Source: Tannerellaceae bacterium
GTDB lineage: Bacteria; Bacteroidota; Bacteroidia; Bacteroidales; Tannerellaceae
Direction of reading: 5' to 3'
Assembly (NCBI GenBank): GCA_031266215.1
Contig: JAISBL010000010.1
Coordinates: forward strand, 1-38,856
DNA: 38,856 bases
Made by a program: the position numbers and the translations under genes. Positions 25,822 to 36,134 of the stretch are shown piece after piece. The stretch's first letter is position 1. Each line of letters opens with the position of its first letter. Below the pieces are notes generated by a model that saw nothing but the letters and a program-made list of their open reading frames with translations, ran no database searches and was not told the origin of the DNA.

Positions 25822-26760
25822 ATGAAAGAAAAAATAATAAGCATAGCAATAATAGCAGTCCTTGCCGTCATTGCAGTAGCATGCAATGACAAGGAAACTG
25901 CAGAAGAGCCCGGCAATAATGGTGTCAGGGAAGGAACCGCTGAGGAAGGTACTATTACCGGGTTGCCCGGGAGACTGTCCTATTATCCGGATTATCAGAT
26001 GTGGGGTATCGAATATGTGTATCCGGGCTCAATAGACGCCATTGATATATACCTTATAAAAGACGGCATTGATGGCGAACTGCCTGTATACACGTCAGTA
26101 TCAGTCACGTTCAGCGGTGATTATTCTCTGACAGAGCTTAGGTATCACATTGCGACATCAACAGTCTATTATCTCACCAATTTAAAATATAAAACCGAAG
26201 AAGATTTCACAGGAGAAGGCAGACCCGTTAGCGGTTTAACCGGGAGGCTGTCTTATTATCTGAGTTATCAGATGTGGGGTATCGAATATGCGTACCCGGG
26301 CTCGATAGACGCCGTAGATATATATCTCATAAAAGACGGCATTGATGATGAACTGCCTGTATACACGTCAGTACCAGTCACGTTCAGCGGAGACTCTTAC
26401 CCGACAAATATCTGGTTACCGTGGGCTGCCGGAACAACAGTCTACTATCTAAGCAATTTAAAATATGAGCAGGAAGGCCTTCCCGAAGGATATCCCATGG
26501 GTGAAGGCACTCACATTGCCGAATTAACAGGGAGATTATTTTATAGTTCGTATTATAAGATGTGGGTTGCCGAATATGCATATCCGGGCACAATAGACAG
26601 TGTAGATTACTATCTCATAATAGACGGTATTGACGACCTTCCCACAGATGCAACAATATCCGTCACATACAGTGGTGATTATTATCCGTCAGGGATTGAG
26701 TCGGCTGTTGCGGGAAGAACTATCTATTATATTACCAATTTTAAATATAAAAAGATATGA
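25822..26760 (+). CDS. Lipoprotein with three tandem repeats of about 85-95 residues
   Basis: Not a family I can name. The 312-residue protein has a lipoprotein signal (MKEKIISIAIIAVLAVIAVAC) followed by a short acidic linker. Three repeats follow, each starting near LTGRLSYY, with MWGIEYAYPGSID, YLIKDGIDDELP, VTFSGDYYP and VYYLTNLKYK as shared blocks (residues about 45-130, 130-225 and 230-312). Repeats 1 and 2 are much closer to each other than to repeat 3. The alternation of hydrophobic and polar residues suggests small beta domains. ATG at 25822 is chosen because it gives the signal peptide. The next start codon overlaps its stop (ATGA). Confidence 0.75.
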   Translation: MKEKIISIAIIAVLAVIAVACNDKETAEEPGNNGVREGTAEEGTITGLPGRLSYYPDYQMWGIEYVYPGSIDAIDIYLIKDGIDGELPVYTSVSVTFSGDYSLTELRYHIATSTVYYLTNLKYKTEEDFTGEGRPVSGLTGRLSYYLSYQMWGIEYAYPGSIDAVDIYLIKDGIDDELPVYTSVPVTFSGDSYPTNIWLPWAAGTTVYYLSNLKYEQEGLPEGYPMGEGTHIAELTGRLFYSSYYKMWVAEYAYPGTIDSVDYYLIIDGIDDLPTDATISVTYSGDYYPSGIESAVAGRTIYYITNFKYKKI

Positions 26761-27330
26761 AAACTTTTCTATCGGTTCTCCTTTGTGCCTTGATGTTGTG
26801 GAGCTGTAATAAAGATGAAAGTATGGAGGGAGTATCCTATACTTAATAGTCCGGCGATTCCTGCGGTATATTTGAATTTCGTAAATCCCGGGGGAGAAAA
26901 TCTGGTGGAAGGCATGCCGGTTGTTAACGAGGGTCAGATAGCTACCCAACACCTTTTGAAAGTGTATATAAAGGGAGAAGGCATAGATGAAACAAAGAAT
27001 TATGGCCTGGATTGTAGTATCAGGATGATTATTCCGGAGAATTATCCCCATGATCTGTACTATGAGGATGTGGATTTTCTGAAGATACATTTCGCACCGT
27101 TTTGGAAGGTACAACCCTGGATGGAAGGCCATCCCGGTACTTATTATATAAGGTGCGAGTTGAGTTGCAACTATTTGTTCGGTACTTTTAATGATCAGAT
27201 ACTGGAAATGACTGTTCAGCGCGCATCTAAAGGTATGGACGCCATTTCGAATGTATTATTCAACGGGAAGGAACAATTTGTCTTAGATCCTCCCGGCTGG
27301 CCGAACTTCTATCAAATTATTGTGGAATAA
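26757..27330 (+). pseudogene. Small lipoprotein gene with an apparent frameshift
   Basis: ATG at 26757 opens a convincing lipoprotein signal (MKTFLSVLLCALMLWSC, then NKDESMEG) that reaches a TAA at about 26842. The rest of the protein continues in another frame to 27330 (PAVYLNFVNPGGENLVEGMP through NFYQIIVE). Total length is one base over a multiple of three. The joined product would be about 190 residues, the same size and layout as the lipoproteins at 29313 and 29961: short linker after the Cys, a F-x-(D/N)-x-x-G-x-(D/N)-x-(L/V) block, and an FG-x-(N/F)(D)-type block near the C-terminus. Either a decayed gene, a phase-variable switch or a sequencing error. The start overlaps the previous stop. 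Confidence 0.7.
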
Positions 27331-27888: not shown

Positions 27889-29301
27889 ATGAAAACACAT
27901 CATTTTATTTTTTCATGTATCCTTGCGACATCCGCTTTTTTCTTCGGATGCCAGCAGGAAGTCTCCCCGCTCTTACCGGAGGGGGAAAATGACGGCAACC
28001 CGGGCGCCCAGAGTGAATCGTTGCTGATTGATCCGGCGATAACGGAACTTTCCGAAATCCATGCGCAAAATGTAGCCAGACTGTTCCGGCAAAAAAGCAT
28101 CGAAACAAAAGCCGGCGGCGTGACCCTTACCACAACTACAGAGACCGTAACACCGATCCTCGATGAGGAAGGCGATCCCCTGATGTATGTAATAAACTTT
28201 GCAGATAACGGCGGTTTCACCATCGTAAGCGCCACAAAGAGCTATTACCCTATACTGGCTTATGCAGATGAAGGTCACTTTGACTGTCCGGAAGTTTTAC
28301 CCGGCGGCATAGATATATGGGTTACCGAGAGAAAGGAAGAGATTTTATATTGTAAGGAAAATGAAGCTTCCCTTGACACCAGTTTCAAACTTATGTGGAG
28401 CGAATATGAAATGCAAGCGGAAGCGCCACCTATGACAAGAGCTGAAATTAGTGATGCTACAAGTGCACTTCTCTCAGCATGGACCGCCAACGGTTACTCC
28501 GTTGTTCCTTTATCCGCAGCAGACGCTGTGATTCCATCAAATTATTACACCAATTTCACAAACTTAGTCAATACAAACGCAAACCCTCAATACGCGAGTT
28601 GGGCATTCGTTATATATAAAAGGTCTAACTCGGAGTACACAAAAGGCCCTTTGCTCGGTAATATTGCCTGGCATCAAGGCAATGGCTTCAATAATTTAAT
28701 ACCAGGCCAGCCTGTGCCTGCGGCGGGATGCGTCAATATTGCCCTGGCACAAATTATGTATTATCATCAGTATCCAGGTTCATACAACTGGAGCGCTATG
28801 AGTCCTACCACAGGAAATCCAGCCGCACAGGCATTAATAAGGGATTTATATTCGGCTACAGGAGGAAATGGCGGCGCAACTATTAGCCAGGCCAAAAGCG
28901 CCCTGAGTTCCTTTGGTTATACCTATACCCAGCAAGATCATAATAGCACAACGATAATTCAGAATATAAATACGAATCGTCCCGTATATATGAGAGGAAC
29001 CGATAGTAATGGAAATGGTGGGCATGCCTGGGTATGTGACGGCTATAAAACTACGTCACCGAAAATAGACTTTCTGTTGGCGTTTGTTCCTAACGGCCCT
29101 GTTCAATATGATACTTATGGGCCTTATTCATATACTAGTACTACTACTATATATTATTTTAATCATAATTGGGGATGGGGTAGTGGGCCTGAAACACAAA
29201 ATGGATGGTTTAGCGGAGAAACTATCCAAACAACTATGAACGGAGGACCTTATAACCCAACAGTGGATAGAAAAGAGTTGATTAATATTGCACCTAATTA
29301 A
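27889..29301 (+). CDS. C10 family (streptopain-like) cysteine protease, lipoprotein
   Basis: A 470-residue secreted protease. The signal peptide ends in a lipobox-like FFFGC (Cys21), so it is probably anchored to the outer membrane. Residues about 50-200 form the Spi-type inhibitory propeptide (IHAQNVARLFRQK; FADNGGFTIVSATKSYYPIL). The catalytic part carries the nucleophile Cys281 in PAAGCVNIALAQIMYYHQYP, the His379 in GGHAWVCDGY and the oxyanion-region NHNWGWGSG. All expected catalytic elements are present. No T9SS sorting domain is visible. It heads a unit with two paralogous small lipoproteins. Bacteroides C10 proteases are often next to staphostatin-like inhibitors; whether the downstream genes are such inhibitors is open. 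Confidence 0.9.
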   Translation: MKTHHFIFSCILATSAFFFGCQQEVSPLLPEGENDGNPGAQSESLLIDPAITELSEIHAQNVARLFRQKSIETKAGGVTLTTTTETVTPILDEEGDPLMYVINFADNGGFTIVSATKSYYPILAYADEGHFDCPEVLPGGIDIWVTERKEEILYCKENEASLDTSFKLMWSEYEMQAEAPPMTRAEISDATSALLSAWTANGYSVVPLSAADAVIPSNYYTNFTNLVNTNANPQYASWAFVIYKRSNSEYTKGPLLGNIAWHQGNGFNNLIPGQPVPAAGCVNIALAQIMYYHQYPGSYNWSAMSPTTGNPAAQALIRDLYSATGGNGGATISQAKSALSSFGYTYTQQDHNSTTIIQNINTNRPVYMRGTDSNGNGGHAWVCDGYKTTSPKIDFLLAFVPNGPVQYDTYGPYSYTSTTTIYYFNHNWGWGSGPETQNGWFSGETIQTTMNGGPYNPTVDRKELINIAPN

Positions 29302-29312
29302 AAGATACACGT

Positions 29313-29909
29313 ATGATGAAGTATTTAAAAATATTATCAGGCGCCCTGCTGATCGCGCTAACGGGCGGATGTGGCGATAGTAATGAGGAACCATTGGATG
29401 GTTACCTGGGGGCTCCGGGTCTGGGTATATGTTTTACAGATTCCAAAGGGCAGGATATTCTGACGGGGATTCCTACGATAACGTGGGTGACTCCGACAGT
29501 GATATACCATGGAGATTTTATATCAAGCGATGTATGCTTTATGAAAAAACTGTTCATAAACGATGAAGAAATATCTGTGGTGGAGAAAGACCCTATGGGA
29601 CTGGTATCTGAAGAATTAACAGGTGGACACTATAAAGCCCTTGGTATTGCATTTGGATATCTCTGGAGGGAAATAAACGACGCATCCAACAATACCGTTT
29701 ATACTGTCAGGAGCGAGATTGTTTGTTCGTACATCTTCGGGAACGACGAGGCGCACATCCTGACCGGGGTATTGGACCGGGGGGGTACTGGAGGACTCTA
29801 TGGGTTCCATAAATGCTGGTTTGACGGCGTAGAAGCTTCGCCTACATATTTTGAATGGGATGAAAGCATACAGAGACCAAATTACTTCATCGTCCGGGTG
29901 GACAGATAA
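29313..29909 (+). CDS. Small lipoprotein, paralog of the next gene
   Basis: Not a family I can name. The 198-residue protein has a lipoprotein signal (YLKILSGALLIALTGGC) and a short acidic linker, then ICFTDSKGQDILTGIP, FINDEEISV and a conserved C-terminal block FGNDEAHIL ... WFDGVEASPTYFEWD ending in FIVRVDR. It is clearly paralogous to the gene at 29961 and more distantly to the frameshifted gene at 26757. It begins 11 bases after the C10 protease. ATG at 29316 is an alternative start. A role as an inhibitor or chaperone of the protease is possible, by position only. Confidence 0.75.
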   Translation: MMKYLKILSGALLIALTGGCGDSNEEPLDGYLGAPGLGICFTDSKGQDILTGIPTITWVTPTVIYHGDFISSDVCFMKKLFINDEEISVVEKDPMGLVSEELTGGHYKALGIAFGYLWREINDASNNTVYTVRSEIVCSYIFGNDEAHILTGVLDRGGTGGLYGFHKCWFDGVEASPTYFEWDESIQRPNYFIVRVDR

Positions 29910-29960
29910 GGCGGCCTTTTTGGGATTTGATTAATATTACACATAATTAAAGAGACACGT

Positions 29961-30536
29961 GTGGCGAAACATTTAAAAATATTATCAGCCGCCCTGCTGA
30001 TCGCGCTCGCGGGCGGATGCGACAATAATGAGGAACCTATAAGGGGTATAGTAGGGCCCGTGAGTCTGAGAATATGTTTTATAGATTCCGAAGGTCAGGA
30101 TCTTCTGACAGGGATTACTTCGGTAGGGTGGAATGCCTCGACAGTGAAAGACAATGGACCTTTTGTAGCGGATAATAGTGACCTTAATATAGAAAAAACG
30201 TTCATAAACGACAGAGAAATACAGGTGCCGGTCATACATGTGGGACTGGGATATGGATATGCAGGTCTACCCTATAAAAACATTTCATTTGCTATTGATC
30301 ACGACTATCTCGTTTCTGAGGATATTTCTACGGGCCGGTGGGAGATCGTTTTTCCGTATATGTTCGGGAACGACGAGGTGCACACCCTGACGGTGGAATT
30401 GGACGTGACTCCGGGGGGATACCGCTGGTATAAGAAATTATGGTTTGACGGCGTAGAAGCTTCGCCTGCCTATTATGAATGGGACACAGGCGCTGATAAG
30501 AAACCAATGGCCTTCATCGTCCGGGTGGACAGATAG
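29961..30536 (+). CDS. Small lipoprotein, tandem duplicate, GTG start
   Basis: A 191-residue lipoprotein that repeats the gene at 29313: signal HLKILSAALLIALAGGC, ICFIDSEGQDLLTGI, FINDREIQV, FGNDEVHTL, WFDGVEASPAYYEWD and the identical ending FIVRVDR. The start codon is GTG where the neighbour has ATG; the upstream bases (ACACGTGTGG against ACACGTATGA) show that the duplication includes the ribosome-binding region. The middle part diverges strongly between the two while both ends are conserved. Last gene before the terminator at 30564. Confidence 0.72.
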   Translation: MAKHLKILSAALLIALAGGCDNNEEPIRGIVGPVSLRICFIDSEGQDLLTGITSVGWNASTVKDNGPFVADNSDLNIEKTFINDREIQVPVIHVGLGYGYAGLPYKNISFAIDHDYLVSEDISTGRWEIVFPYMFGNDEVHTLTVELDVTPGGYRWYKKLWFDGVEASPAYYEWDTGADKKPMAFIVRVDR

Positions 30537-31158: not shown

Positions 31159-31971
31159 ATGAAAAAGTTATTAATTCTGTTAACGCTGTTTATGGCCGGG
31201 TGCATCACGAATGATCCGCCTGCTATCAATCCACCTGCTATCAATCCACCTGCTATCGATCCGCCTACGATTGATCCGCCTGCATTTGATCCACCTGCAT
31301 TTGATCCGGCTTATGAAGATCCCTCCATTTATACGGCGAATCCTAGTGAAGCCTTCTTTTTACCCGGAAAAGTGTTTCAATTGGAAAGCATCCTTGATAT
31401 TGAATCAAATACCGTAAGGGAATTAACAACAGGAGATAACCCCGACAGCTATTCGATGCTTTTCAACTCCGACAGTACGGCAAACGGCAAAATCATGAAC
31501 ACAGAGATGCAGGTCAGCCTTTTCCGTCCATTCTTCCACCTGTCCGGGGAACAAGAGGACAACGAGGAAGCGCAGTTGTTCGCTCAGATAGCTTCCGGGA
31601 TTACAGGCTGTTGGTATAACTTTGAGGGTAACGTGATGAAATTCTATAACAAAGAAAACAAGAACTGTCTTGTGTTTAAATTTAAAAGCGTCCGTGATAA
31701 AACGGGATCAATTAGTTACGACTCCCTACTGAAAAGATGGGCAATACATGGCAGGGACTACCTCACCGGTGAAGGTCATATTTTCTATGATAGCGGCGAC
31801 GAGTACTTCCCTGACGATATCCCCGATGAATTAAAAAAGATGGGGCAAATGGTGAAATTCAGTGGTGATGTCACGCGTGTTCCATGCATTGAAACCGACA
31901 GGGGTTGCGTTGCAACAACAATCTCCTATTATTTAATCAGCTTATCTTCTTTAGAAAAATTACCTTTGTAA
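31159..31971 (+). CDS. Lipoprotein with a proline-rich pentapeptide tether, upstream of the metalloprotease
   Basis: Not a family I can name. The 270-residue protein starts with MKKLLILLTLFMAGC, a clean lipoprotein signal. Directly after the Cys, eight imperfect five-residue repeats of type (N/D)PPA(I/F) (bases 31210-31322) form a stiff tether. The remaining 210 residues (SEAFFLPGKVFQLESILDI onward) look like a soluble, mostly beta domain, with a Cys pair near the C-terminus (PCIETDRGC). ATG at 31159 is chosen for the signal peptide, although the frame is open to 31042. It ends 13 bases before the matrixin gene. By position it could be a potempin-like guard inhibitor; this is unproven. Confidence 0.72.
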   Translation: MKKLLILLTLFMAGCITNDPPAINPPAINPPAIDPPTIDPPAFDPPAFDPAYEDPSIYTANPSEAFFLPGKVFQLESILDIESNTVRELTTGDNPDSYSMLFNSDSTANGKIMNTEMQVSLFRPFFHLSGEQEDNEEAQLFAQIASGITGCWYNFEGNVMKFYNKENKNCLVFKFKSVRDKTGSISYDSLLKRWAIHGRDYLTGEGHIFYDSGDEYFPDDIPDELKKMGQMVKFSGDVTRVPCIETDRGCVATTISYYLISLSSLEKLPL

Positions 31972-31984
31972 AACATTAATCATT

Positions 31985-33193
31985 ATGAAAACAATCATTA
32001 TTTGCAAAAAACTGCTTTTCATTGCGTTATTATTTGTAAGCGCAAATGCATATACTCAAGTATTGTTCGATAATATAGATGCCTCAACAACAAGGTCAAG
32101 CGTATTAGGACCTAAATGGGATAAAATATCTCTGACATATTATGTTAACCATACGAATGCACCTGGATTAAGCAATAGTATAAGAGAAAGTATAATACAA
32201 GCCGCTTTTCAAAAATGGGCGGATGTCAGTTATTTTACATTCACGAAAACAACAAACAGCAGTATAGCAGATATTACATTGCGTTTTGCTTTTGTTGACG
32301 GGAATAGCTATGGTACTATTCCTGGTAACCACTTAGCTTATGTACCTGTCTCCACTGGAATTACGACTATGTCATATATAGAATTAATATATGATAAAGA
32401 TGAAAATTGGGCAAATGGAGGGTCTTCCGGGATCAATATGAATAGTGTAACTTTACATGAGATTGGTCATGCATTGGGACTTGGACATTCAGATGTACTT
32501 GATGCCGTTATGTATAGTAAATATAATTCAAATAAGATAAATCTGACACAAGACGACATTGATGGAATCCAGGCTTTATATCCTACTCCTCCTGTTACTT
32601 CATTTACATTCAGTTCATACACAAATACAGGACTTGGGGTATCCTCCTGCCCAAGTGAAATGTTTTGGATTTACCCAACCATTCCGATCCCACTAGGCAG
32701 TGTGTTACAAGGTGAATGGCAGGTTACAGGATGCGCGATCGCAAGTTCAGGGACAACAGGACTTCGCATAACGGCTCCTTCCGGTATTTATGCCGATTTC
32801 ACAGTAAAATACCGCTATCAAACAAATTCAGGCTGGAGTACCTGGACAACCCTGTATGGCACTACCCGGAACTGTGCAGCCGGAGAAGACCCATATAGAA
32901 TTGGCGCCAGTAATACCGGTGATGTCAGTATATCTCAGAACCAAAGCAGCACAGTAATATATATCCAATTGAATCAAACCGGACAAACGAGCCTTAGCTC
33001 AGCTTCGGCAGGCAGTTCGTCAAATATAATCAGGCTGTATAATAATCAGGGAATCCTTGTACGCAACTTCACAAGCTCTGAAGAAAATATTGAAATCAAT
33101 ACATCCGATTTGCCTAATGGAATCTATTACCTGCATGTTTTCCACGACAACTCAGGAAATCCATACACAGGCGCTTTGCTTATAAATCATTAA
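31985..33193 (+). CDS. Karilysin-like matrixin metalloprotease (M10) with T9SS C-terminal domain
   Basis: A 402-residue secreted zinc protease. Signal peptide residues 1-22 (ends SANA). A very short propeptide follows, with Asp29 in VLFDN, then the catalytic domain from about GPKWDKISLTYYV. The zinc motif HEIGHALGLGHS places His158, Glu159, His162 and His168; the Met-turn is Met176 in AVMYSK. The pattern YDKDENWANGG before the zinc motif is as in matrix metalloproteinases and in karilysin of Tannerella forsythia. Residues about 205-330 are a Cys-containing beta region. The C-terminal 70 residues (IIRLYNNQGILVRNF; DLPNGIYYLHVF) are a type A T9SS sorting domain. The protein ends LLINH, not KLIKK. 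Confidence 0.88.
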   Translation: MKTIIICKKLLFIALLFVSANAYTQVLFDNIDASTTRSSVLGPKWDKISLTYYVNHTNAPGLSNSIRESIIQAAFQKWADVSYFTFTKTTNSSIADITLRFAFVDGNSYGTIPGNHLAYVPVSTGITTMSYIELIYDKDENWANGGSSGINMNSVTLHEIGHALGLGHSDVLDAVMYSKYNSNKINLTQDDIDGIQALYPTPPVTSFTFSSYTNTGLGVSSCPSEMFWIYPTIPIPLGSVLQGEWQVTGCAIASSGTTGLRITAPSGIYADFTVKYRYQTNSGWSTWTTLYGTTRNCAAGEDPYRIGASNTGDVSISQNQSSTVIYIQLNQTGQTSLSSASAGSSSNIIRLYNNQGILVRNFTSSEENIEINTSDLPNGIYYLHVFHDNSGNPYTGALLINH

Positions 33194-33347: not shown

Positions 33348-36134
33348 ATGAAACTCTTCCTTATCGACGCATACGCACTTATTTACAGGTCGTACTATGC
33401 ATTCATAAAAGCCCCCCGGATCAACTCAAAAGGAATGAACACATCAGCCATCTTCGGCTTTATCAACGGGCTCGAAGACGTGCTGAAGAGGGAAAACCCG
33501 ACACACGTAGCCGTGGGCTTCGACCCCGACGGACCCACCTTCCGCCACGAGATATACGAGCAATACAAGGCACACAGGGAAAAAACGCCCGAAGTCATAC
33601 GCGAATCGGTACCCATCATAAAGGAAATAATCAGGGCGTACAACATACCCATTGTCGAAGTAGCACGCTACGAGGCCGACGACGTTATCGGCACGATAGC
33701 CGGGCAGGCTGAACGGCAGGGGTTCGACGTCTACATGGTGACGCCCGACAAAGACTACGGCCAGCTCGTGACCGACCATATATTCGTCTACCGACCCAAA
33801 TTCGGAGGCGGATACGAGACGATGGGCGTCAGGGAGGTTACTGAAAAATTCGACATCGCCTCGGTCGGACAGGTGACCGACCTGCTCGGACTTATGGGAG
33901 ACCTCTCCGACAACATCCCCGGATGCCCCGGAGTGGGCGAGAAGACAGCCGCCAGGCTCCTCCGGGAATTCGGCTCCGTAGAAAACCTCCTCGCAAACAC
34001 CAACAGGCTCAAGGGAGTCCTTAAAACCAAAATAGAAGAAAACGCCGAACAAATACGGTTCTCCAGGTACCTGGCAACCATCATAACAGACGTCCCGCTC
34101 ACGTTCCAGGCCGAAAACTGCACCGTCAGCAAACCGAACAGGGAAAAGCTCATAGAAATATACACCGGGCTCGAGTTCCGAAACTTTATAAACAAACTGG
34201 CAGGCGCCGAAAGCAAGCCCGCAGCCAAAGCCCCTCCCGTGCAGGGAACGCTCTTCGCCCAGTTTGAGGTGGAAGAAGAAGCGCCCGCCCCGGCAGCAGA
34301 AAGCGTCGAAAGCGCCGACCTCGACAACCTCGCGTCCACGCCCCATACCTACCACATCGCCGCCGGCGAAGAAGAATGTGCCAGGCTGGCAGACTACCTC
34401 GGCAGGCAGGAAGCCTTCGCCTTCGACACCGAGACCGACGGCCTCGACCCGCTCACGGCCCGGCTCGTCGGCATGTCCTTCGCCGTCGCCCCCGGCGAAG
34501 CCTGGTACGTCCCCGTGCCCCCCGGCGACGAGGAGGCCGCGGCCGTGATAAGCCACTTCTCCCCTACCCTCCTCAACCCCGCGATAATGAAGATCGGGCA
34601 AAACATAAAATTCGACATCCTCGTCCTCCGCAAGTACGGCGTCCGCGTAGCCGGCCCACTCTTCGACACCATGATAGCCCACTACCTCCTCAACCCCGAA
34701 CTCCGCCACGGGATGGATTATCTGGCCGAGACATACCTCAGGTACCGGACGATACACATCACCGAACTCATTGGCCCCAAAGGGAAAAAACAGATCACCA
34801 TGCGCGACGTGCCGCTCGACGACATCGCCCGGTACGCCGCCGAAGACGCCGACGTGACAATAAAACTCCGGCGCCTCTTCGGGCCTGAGCTCCAAAAGCA
34901 GGGCGTCGAAGCACTCTTCCGCGACATGGAGGCCCCCCTCATATACGTCCTCAGCGACATGGAGGCGGCCGGCGTAAAGCTCGACACGACCGCGCTCAGG
35001 CAGTCTTCGGAAACGCTCACGACGGAGCTCATCAGGCTCGAAAAAGAAATATACGCGCTCGCCGGGGCGGAGTTCAACATCAACTCGGTAAAGCAGGTGG
35101 GCGAAATACTCTACGAACGGCTCAGGATAGACGACAGGGCCAAAAAAACAAAAACCGGCAATTACAGCACCAGCGAAGATATACTGGAGAAGCTCCGCCC
35201 GAAACATCCCATTATAGGCAAACTGCTTGAATACAGGGGTATAAAAAAGCTCCTCAGCACTTATATCGACGCCCTCCCGGCGCTGGTCAACCCGCAGACG
35301 GGCAGGATACATACTTCCTTCAACCAGACCGTCACCTCCACGGGGCGGCTCAGTTCCACCAGCCCCAACCTCCAGAACATACCCATCCGCGACGAGATGG
35401 GCCGCGAGATACGCAAGGCTTTCATCCCCGAAAGCGACGACTGTATCTTCTTCTCCGCCGACTATTCGCAGATCGAACTGCGCATCATGGCCCACCTCAG
35501 CGGGGACGAGAACATGATCCGGGCCTTCCACAGCGGCGAAGACATTCACTCGGCCACCGCCGCCAGGATATATAATATAAGCATCAGTGAGGTGAGCAAA
35601 GACATGCGGCGCAAGGCCAAGACGGCTAACTTCGGCATCATCTACGGCATATCGGTCTTCGGCCTCGCCGAGCGGCTCAACATCCCGCGCAGCGAAGCCA
35701 AAGAGCTTATCGACGGATACTTCGTCACTTACCCGCGCGTGCGCCAATACATGGACCGTAGCATCCTGGCGGCCAGGGAGAAGGGGTATGTCGAAACCAT
35801 CTTCCGACGCAAGCGTTACCTGCCCGACATATATTCGGCCAACGCCATCGTGAGGGGCTACGCCGAGCGCAACGCCATAAACGCTCCCATACAGGGAAGC
35901 GCCGCCGACATAATAAAAATGGCCATGATACGCATCCACCAGCGCTTCGAAGCCGGCCGCCTGAGAAGTAAGATGCTCCTTCAGGTGCATGACGAACTGA
36001 ACTTCAACGTCTGCAAAAGCGAAGCCGCGGAGGTTCGCCGGATAGTGATAGAAGAGATGGAGAACGTCATCTCCCTCCGCGTCCCTCTGGTAGCCGACTA
36101 CGGCGAAGGCCGCAACTGGTTCGAAGCACACTGA
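33348..36134 (+). CDS. polA: DNA polymerase I
   Basis: Replication/repair polymerase of 928 residues. The 5'-3' exonuclease domain is N-terminal (LFLIDAYALIYRSYYAF; EADDVIGTIA; TPDKDYGQLV). The 3'-5' exonuclease has an intact DxE site in FAFDTETDGLDP near residue 361. The polymerase domain has motif A DYSQIELRIMAHLSGD near residue 705, motif B RRKAKTANFGIIYGIS and motif C LQVHDELNF near residue 880. The ending GRNWFEAH is normal for the family. GC-rich with strong C/G third positions. The reading frame continues open past the single TGA stop through the 21-bp array downstream (see findings). Confidence 0.97.
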   Translation: MKLFLIDAYALIYRSYYAFIKAPRINSKGMNTSAIFGFINGLEDVLKRENPTHVAVGFDPDGPTFRHEIYEQYKAHREKTPEVIRESVPIIKEIIRAYNIPIVEVARYEADDVIGTIAGQAERQGFDVYMVTPDKDYGQLVTDHIFVYRPKFGGGYETMGVREVTEKFDIASVGQVTDLLGLMGDLSDNIPGCPGVGEKTAARLLREFGSVENLLANTNRLKGVLKTKIEENAEQIRFSRYLATIITDVPLTFQAENCTVSKPNREKLIEIYTGLEFRNFINKLAGAESKPAAKAPPVQGTLFAQFEVEEEAPAPAAESVESADLDNLASTPHTYHIAAGEEECARLADYLGRQEAFAFDTETDGLDPLTARLVGMSFAVAPGEAWYVPVPPGDEEAAAVISHFSPTLLNPAIMKIGQNIKFDILVLRKYGVRVAGPLFDTMIAHYLLNPELRHGMDYLAETYLRYRTIHITELIGPKGKKQITMRDVPLDDIARYAAEDADVTIKLRRLFGPELQKQGVEALFRDMEAPLIYVLSDMEAAGVKLDTTALRQSSETLTTELIRLEKEIYALAGAEFNINSVKQVGEILYERLRIDDRAKKTKTGNYSTSEDILEKLRPKHPIIGKLLEYRGIKKLLSTYIDALPALVNPQTGRIHTSFNQTVTSTGRLSSTSPNLQNIPIRDEMGREIRKAFIPESDDCIFFSADYSQIELRIMAHLSGDENMIRAFHSGEDIHSATAARIYNISISEVSKDMRRKAKTANFGIIYGISVFGLAERLNIPRSEAKELIDGYFVTYPRVRQYMDRSILAAREKGYVETIFRRKRYLPDIYSANAIVRGYAERNAINAPIQGSAADIIKMAMIRIHQRFEAGRLRSKMLLQVHDELNFNVCKSEAAEVRRIVIEEMENVISLRVPLVADYGEGRNWFEAH

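Follow-up and report, generated by a model that had tools for sequence, protein, structure and literature searches.

The window, by which we mean the whole stretch of 38,856 nucleotides analyzed here, comes from a draft genome (2.7 Mb, 87% complete) of the Tannerellaceae, the family that also contains Tannerella. It probably encodes a two-step safety module like that of karilysin and potempin A: a matrixin with a built-in zymogen lock and, encoded directly upstream, a lipoprotein that guards it. Four sets of observations underlie this reading: the anatomy of the two genes, the register of a propeptide motif, the homology of an inhibitor domain and the conservation of the gene pair. From them we infer how the module would work. 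The matrixin would be secreted by the T9SS and made as a zymogen, in which a 14-residue tail would place an LFDN motif across the active site, with Asp29 occupying the catalytic zinc. Cleavage near Ser38-Ser39 would liberate the active enzyme, and the upstream lipoprotein, anchored in the membrane, would use its PotA-like C-terminal domain to block matrixin activated near the cell. By sequence the enzyme is an aspartate-switch-type matrixin and, by its C-terminus, not a KLIKK protease. We class the pair as a divergent variant of the karilysin/potempin system, with a presumptive inhibitor; because that inhibitor has two domains, the variant would be a new one.

The matrixin and its propeptide

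The open reading frame at 31985-33193 is intact. Its coordinates, strand and length are as given in the preliminary description, as is the numbering of Asp29, His158, His162 and His168 (LFDN begins at residue 27 and HEIGH at residue 158). The gene and its parts are as follows:

31985..33193, + strand: karilysin-like matrixin, 402 aa, comprising signal peptide, mini-propeptide, catalytic domain, middle region and T9SS type A sorting domain
32057..32098, + strand: mini-propeptide Gln25-Ser38, 14 residues (alignment with karilysin)
32063..32074, + strand: LFDN motif, candidate aspartate switch, with the Asp29 codon at 32069-32071 (motif search, alignments)
32099..32593, + strand: catalytic domain, residues 39-203 (PF00413 covers residues 44-199)
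32456..32488, + strand: zinc-binding motif HEIGHALGLGH, His158/162/168 (motif search, alignment)
32510-32512, + strand: Met-turn, Met176 (alignment)
32594..32944, + strand: middle region, residues 204-320 (alignment)
32987..33190, + strand: T9SS type A sorting domain, residues 335-402, C-terminus LLINH (Pfam/NCBIfam)

The matrixin domain is recognized by Pfam (PF00413, E 2.6e-32, 112.3 bits against a curated cut-off of 24) and is the sole PF00413 match in the host genome. The sequence HExxHxxGxxH at residues 158-168, together with the Met-turn at Met176, places the protein among the matrixins (peptidase family M10). The best PDB match to the catalytic domain is animal MMP-1 (E 1.7e-24), ranking above karilysin (2e-22), to which the catalytic domain is 36% identical. 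MMP-1 has a cysteine-switch prodomain of ~80 residues and a hemopexin domain; the window matrixin shows neither.

Of particular interest is the short segment in front of the catalytic domain. The preliminary description had counted about 15 residues here, including LFDN; alignment with karilysin gives 14 (Gln25-Ser38). Under the A-x-A rule for signal peptidase a cut after Ala22 is also possible, which would yield a propeptide of 16 residues. In a phmmer search, residues 26-202 of the window protein match prokarilysin (4r3v) over positions 4-181; another search, with residues 25-203, pairs 3-178 of that query with 5-181. Both results are ranges only; in a residue-level alignment with Tannerella karilysin, Asp29 falls on Asp. 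The propeptide is thus short and carries L-[YF]-D-N in register, as in aspartate-switch MMPs, and one of the two points on which the preliminary description had staked its proposal, the register of LFDN with the karilysin propeptide, holds. In karilysin (4r3v zymogen, 2xs4 mature, 8b2q), too, the propeptide has 14 residues and carries Q-x-L-[YF]-D-N in the same register; the two proteins also share a matrixin domain with HExxHxxGxxH, a C-terminal extension and a PotA-type gene upstream. According to PMC6949598, the karilysin pro-segment has 14 residues and an aspartate switch blocks the active site; the preliminary description had stated both.

Given the amino-acid make-up of the 6155 residues of 13 window ORFs, the chance of L[YF]D[NH] is 2.6e-5 for a single given place and 3.4e-4 when any of 13 places is allowed; within those 6155 residues the motif occurs 0 times. 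It is present in eight karilysin-type copies, which represent seven distinct segments (the G352 and G466 propeptides are the same): LFDN in the window, LYDN in G407, G352, G466, G193 and G820, LYDH in G467 and KYDN in G704. Upstream genes were examined for these eight copies; the seven matrixins found to have a PotA-like gene there all carry the motif, and G820, which has no such gene, carries it too. The residues behind the motif vary among copies, and this fits constraint on the Asp segment alone.

The same variability can be read another way: the short N-terminal segment might be a remnant or linker that confers no zymogen latency, leaving control solely to the upstream lipoprotein inhibitor. 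Such a segment need not be conserved between LFDN and the catalytic domain, and it is not; the spacing from Asp29 to Trp45 is one residue shorter than in karilysin, and no model supports contact with the zinc. However, free drift hardly explains why the Asp is kept in all eight copies (seven segments), down to 36–37% catalytic-domain identity to the window (G704 excluded), and we regard a mere remnant as improbable. An AlphaFold2 model of the zymogen, built from two sequences, is unusable (pLDDT 30.9), and it is accordingly from the motif and its register that we infer, on good grounds, zinc binding by Asp29 and the latency that would follow from it.

Other possible latency motifs occur in the phylum. 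Of twelve loci read from a phylum-wide search, 10 have a frame containing the zinc motif; two of those 10 carry the Asp motif (G820, and G704 before its stop). Two Bacteroidota matrixins (G803 and G721, loci L099 and L100) share the matrixin domain, but behind a long prodomain they have an animal-like RCGxxD cysteine motif (RCGFPD and RCGTLD, respectively) rather than the Asp. Cysteine- and Asp-type latency motifs hence coexist in one phylum. G626 and G859 show Cys-Pro near the matrixin domain; G718 has almost no prosegment.

The window matrixin departs from karilysin in three respects. The first is the structural-zinc site, whose ligands (His/Asp/His/His) are a typical feature of MMPs that karilysin shares, although PF00413 does not require them. 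The Tannerella segments HGDG, LAHAF and HLHF align to GNSY, LAYVP and ELIY in the window matrixin, from which the His/Asp/His/His set is missing in this alignment; the G407 copy is also without the ligands. A nearby His, three residues before the aligned Tyr, is absent from G407, and the alignment of the loop is uncertain. As far as this loop alignment can be read, the site has probably been lost, which would make the window enzyme an atypical matrixin. The ligands are kept in Tannerella, G193, G704 and G820, and are missing also from the more distant G626, G718 and G660.

The second is the middle region, which the preliminary description had taken to differ from that of karilysin. It is indeed shorter, but it is not wholly different: residues 237-399 align with the karilysin C-terminal extension at 26% identity, with an E of 1e-9 when 15 loci, a small set, were searched. 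Residues 209-402, which include the sorting domain, most resemble the C-terminal part of a protein of a different kind in G144 (L003:703-2085; 31%, E 3.3e-23), so the tail is common to different catalytic parts. The G144 protein is 460 aa long, bears a CHAYAWH motif and ends LMINH.

The third is the C-terminus itself, LLINH in place of KLIKK. The T9SS domain that had been proposed is present, scoring above the curated cut-offs of both PF18962 (29.8 against 27) and TIGR04183 (26.5 against 23). PorV is detected in the host genome (422 bits against a cut-off of 90), where two of four sorting-domain matches pass the cut-off. Karilysin is T9SS-dependent according to PMC4404884. Elsewhere in the host genome, contig C72 encodes a 744-aa protein with a T9SS domain (L091:760-2994) that by eye resembles a trypsin-like serine protease.

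The upstream lipoprotein and the gene pair

Beyond what the preliminary description covered, the analysis brought out the probable loss of structural-zinc ligands described above, a tandem-repeat lipoprotein (see below) and a candidate inhibitor gene immediately upstream of the matrixin:

31159..31971, + strand: two-domain potempin-like lipoprotein, 270 aa, with a lipobox-like MAGC ending at Cys15; its stop lies 13 bp before the matrixin start
31213..31308, + strand: Pro-rich stalk of NPPAI/DPPAF units (translation)
31321..31668, + strand: extra N-terminal domain, which shares 29% identity with a single-domain lipoprotein encoded on contig C3 of the host genome
31675..31968, + strand: C-terminal PotA-like domain (phmmer, BLASTP, profile, hhalign)

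Four comparisons point to PotA. A phmmer search of 177,635 PDB sequences returned three PotA chains as the sole hits below 0.01 (E 9.4e-4). BLASTP against the G352 protein gave 30% identity over 94 residues (E 4e-8, for a single comparison). A profile built without window sequences, from five PotA-like proteins, found 31159-31971 among 866 ORFs at E 8.8e-7, the best ORF of one shuffled copy reaching 0.066. Finally, hhalign of the C-terminal domain against PotA gave E 4e-9 with 96% probability. A single-sequence search with the PotA-like protein of G193 matched six of 393 genomes and missed the window lipoprotein, a measure of how far the latter has diverged; in three genomes where that search gave weak PotA-like hits (G284, G204 and G090), tblastn with the window proteins found nothing.

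Potempins are known as small proteins of one domain. Potempin A (8b2m, 8b2n, 8b2q) and the window lipoprotein share a lipoprotein signal and a position upstream of a karilysin-like gene, and the window C-terminal domain is 30% identical to potempin A; however, potempin A has 118 aa, whereas the window protein has 270 aa and includes a Pro-rich stalk and a further domain at the N-terminal side. Because of this length and second domain we call it potempin-like rather than a plain potempin. A model of the inhibitor is unusable (pLDDT 34.2). Two PDB profile searches with the extra N-terminal domain gave only hits of E 0.33 or worse, and it has no Pfam match. Kinship with PotE/PotB, the other potempin fold, found no support in these profile searches. 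The single-domain relative on contig C3 gave a META hit at E 0.075, below cut-off.

The arrangement of the two genes has a precedent. KLIKK protease genes of T. forsythia are directly preceded by genes for lipoprotein inhibitors (potempins) in all strains studied but two, and the lipoproteins are described as specific inhibitors (PMC7296668). The window matrixin, like a KLIKK protease gene, has a PotA-like gene directly upstream, with a gap of 13 bp. The same holds for seven of the eight genomes with the propeptide motif (the window, G407, G352, G466, G467, G193 and G704), in which the adjacent, same-strand pair spans at least three families by label (f1, f92 and f128). Three of these genomes (G352, G466 and G467) we term Tannerella, because all three have the same genus label and genes for both karilysin and PotA: in G466 and G467 the PotA gene lies directly upstream of karilysin with a 1-bp gap, and the PotA of G352 matches the PDB sequence of T. 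forsythia PotA at 117 of 118 positions. The eighth genome, G820, has a 242-aa lipoprotein upstream, and the PotA profile finds no hit in the 12 kb around. We found no report of a karilysin/potempin-type pair outside Tannerella in literature that included the accessible text of PMC4404884, PMC7296668, PMC6949598 and PMC12587646, which is a weak absence given that the primary papers on prokarilysin (2015) and the potempins (2023) were not part of it.

Might the lipoprotein be an unrelated surface or binding protein that retains an OB-like domain and does not inhibit the window matrixin? Its extra N-terminal domain is absent from PotA, its similarity to PotA is just 30%, and the host genome encodes a paralogue, 58% identical, with no adjoining matrixin. 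Against this stands the conserved order: a neighbor in the same orientation as a karilysin-type gene in seven of eight genomes, from at least three families, makes a role unconnected with the matrixin unlikely. We therefore keep to the reading of the lipoprotein as a putative inhibitor. The paralogue (L092:3108-3950, − strand, contig C94) is itself a two-domain potempin-like protein; near it, on the opposite strand, lie a CHAYAWH-motif protein and a sorting-domain frame. A further PotA-like lipoprotein without an adjoining matrixin is found in G112 (L086:3166-3537), followed by another small lipoprotein.

The pair at 31159-33193 has a G+C content of 43% (inhibitor gene) and 39% (matrixin gene), compared with 57.5% for DNA polymerase I (33348-36134) and 48% for the window; by this contrast it was possibly acquired. 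Assignment to a mobile element was considered and rejected: the inhibitor matched no phage record, and 14 plasmid records match the matrixin, of which none covers 80% of the query.

Distribution and possible decay of karilysin-type matrixins

A search for homologues in other Bacteroidales, which the preliminary description had called for, shows the type to be rare. Among 393 genomes sampled from the order, three have a karilysin-type matrixin (G000, G352 and G193) by our own reading of the 34 matches above the Pfam cut-off. The family sample gave five of 123 above cut-off (one without the zinc motif), the class sample two of 287 at E 1e-15, and the phylum sample 70 of 395 with some match at E 1e-3, mostly partial. 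G820 and G704 belong to the same class as the window and to a different order.

Four of the eight matrixin genes examined are broken in their assemblies; those of the window, G466, G467 and G820 are intact. In G352 the gene is split between frames, and in G193 and G704 it contains an in-frame stop. The copy in the congener G407 (L031:4998-5645) has lost the zinc motif and has no start codon before the signal peptide, yet keeps the propeptide and the C-terminal end. It is possible that the breaks are errors of draft assembly. Beside all four broken genes the inhibitor frame is open (with an uncertain start in G407). An inhibitor that outlasts its protease would fit immunity, although four cases prove nothing.

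In a tree of the catalytic domain from 13 sequences, the window and G407 form a pair (0.996) that shares a long branch; its further placement is weak, and the tree does not unite the carriers of the motif. G311 and G251, having no frame with HExxHxxGxxH, were left out.

Tandem potempin-like repeats and a possible wider role

A second lipoprotein of the window also has PotA-like domains, and it lies in the neighborhood of a protease of another class:

25822..26760, + strand: lipoprotein with three tandem PotA-like repeats, at 25945-26202, 26203-26481 and 26482-26757 (profile)
27889..29301, + strand: C10 (streptopain-like) cysteine protease with I69 pro-domain (Pfam)

Repeats 2 and 3 are 71% and 54% identical to repeat 1. 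As a single sequence the lipoprotein has weak PDB hits, to PotA chains only (E 0.04); a profile of its three repeats hits PotA only (E 2.4e-4). Conversely, the PotA profile matches it at E 8.8e-7 in sum, the best single repeat scoring 0.02. No Pfam family matches above cut-off. When the host genome was searched with a profile that included its own PotA-like domains, those five domains, in three proteins, were recovered, and none other at E 0.01. In contrast to the single domain of potempin A, this protein thus has three in tandem. It lies 1.1 kb before the C10 protease, and since another ORF intervenes, its pairing with that protease is a guess.

Together, single, fused and tandem-repeat forms raise a broader idea, which we advance tentatively and hold to be somewhat doubtful: that potempins are modular, anchored guards across the Bacteroidia, facing different classes of protease, with orphans persisting after decay of the protease or in its absence. 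If this is true, orphan potempin-like copies would fit immunity against the enzymes of neighbors or of a host. The fused and triple forms would enlarge an inhibitor family whose known members are small and have a single domain.

Descriptions of karilysin make it a virulence factor in a gum pathogen; potempins are described as guards of such proteases. The combination of zymogen lock and inhibitor guard may extend beyond a single oral pathogen: its presence in an uncultured genus of the Tannerellaceae, and partly also elsewhere in the Bacteroidia, points to a role that predates gum disease. The window matrixin and its relatives also provide independent natural variants for tests of the aspartate switch.

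The C10 protease has further lipoproteins around it. Two similar ones, of 198 and 191 aa and with no Pfam match, follow it (27889-30536, + strand, for the three genes), and a 171-aa ORF at 26815 appears by eye to belong to the same family. These lipoproteins are possible inhibitors or partners.
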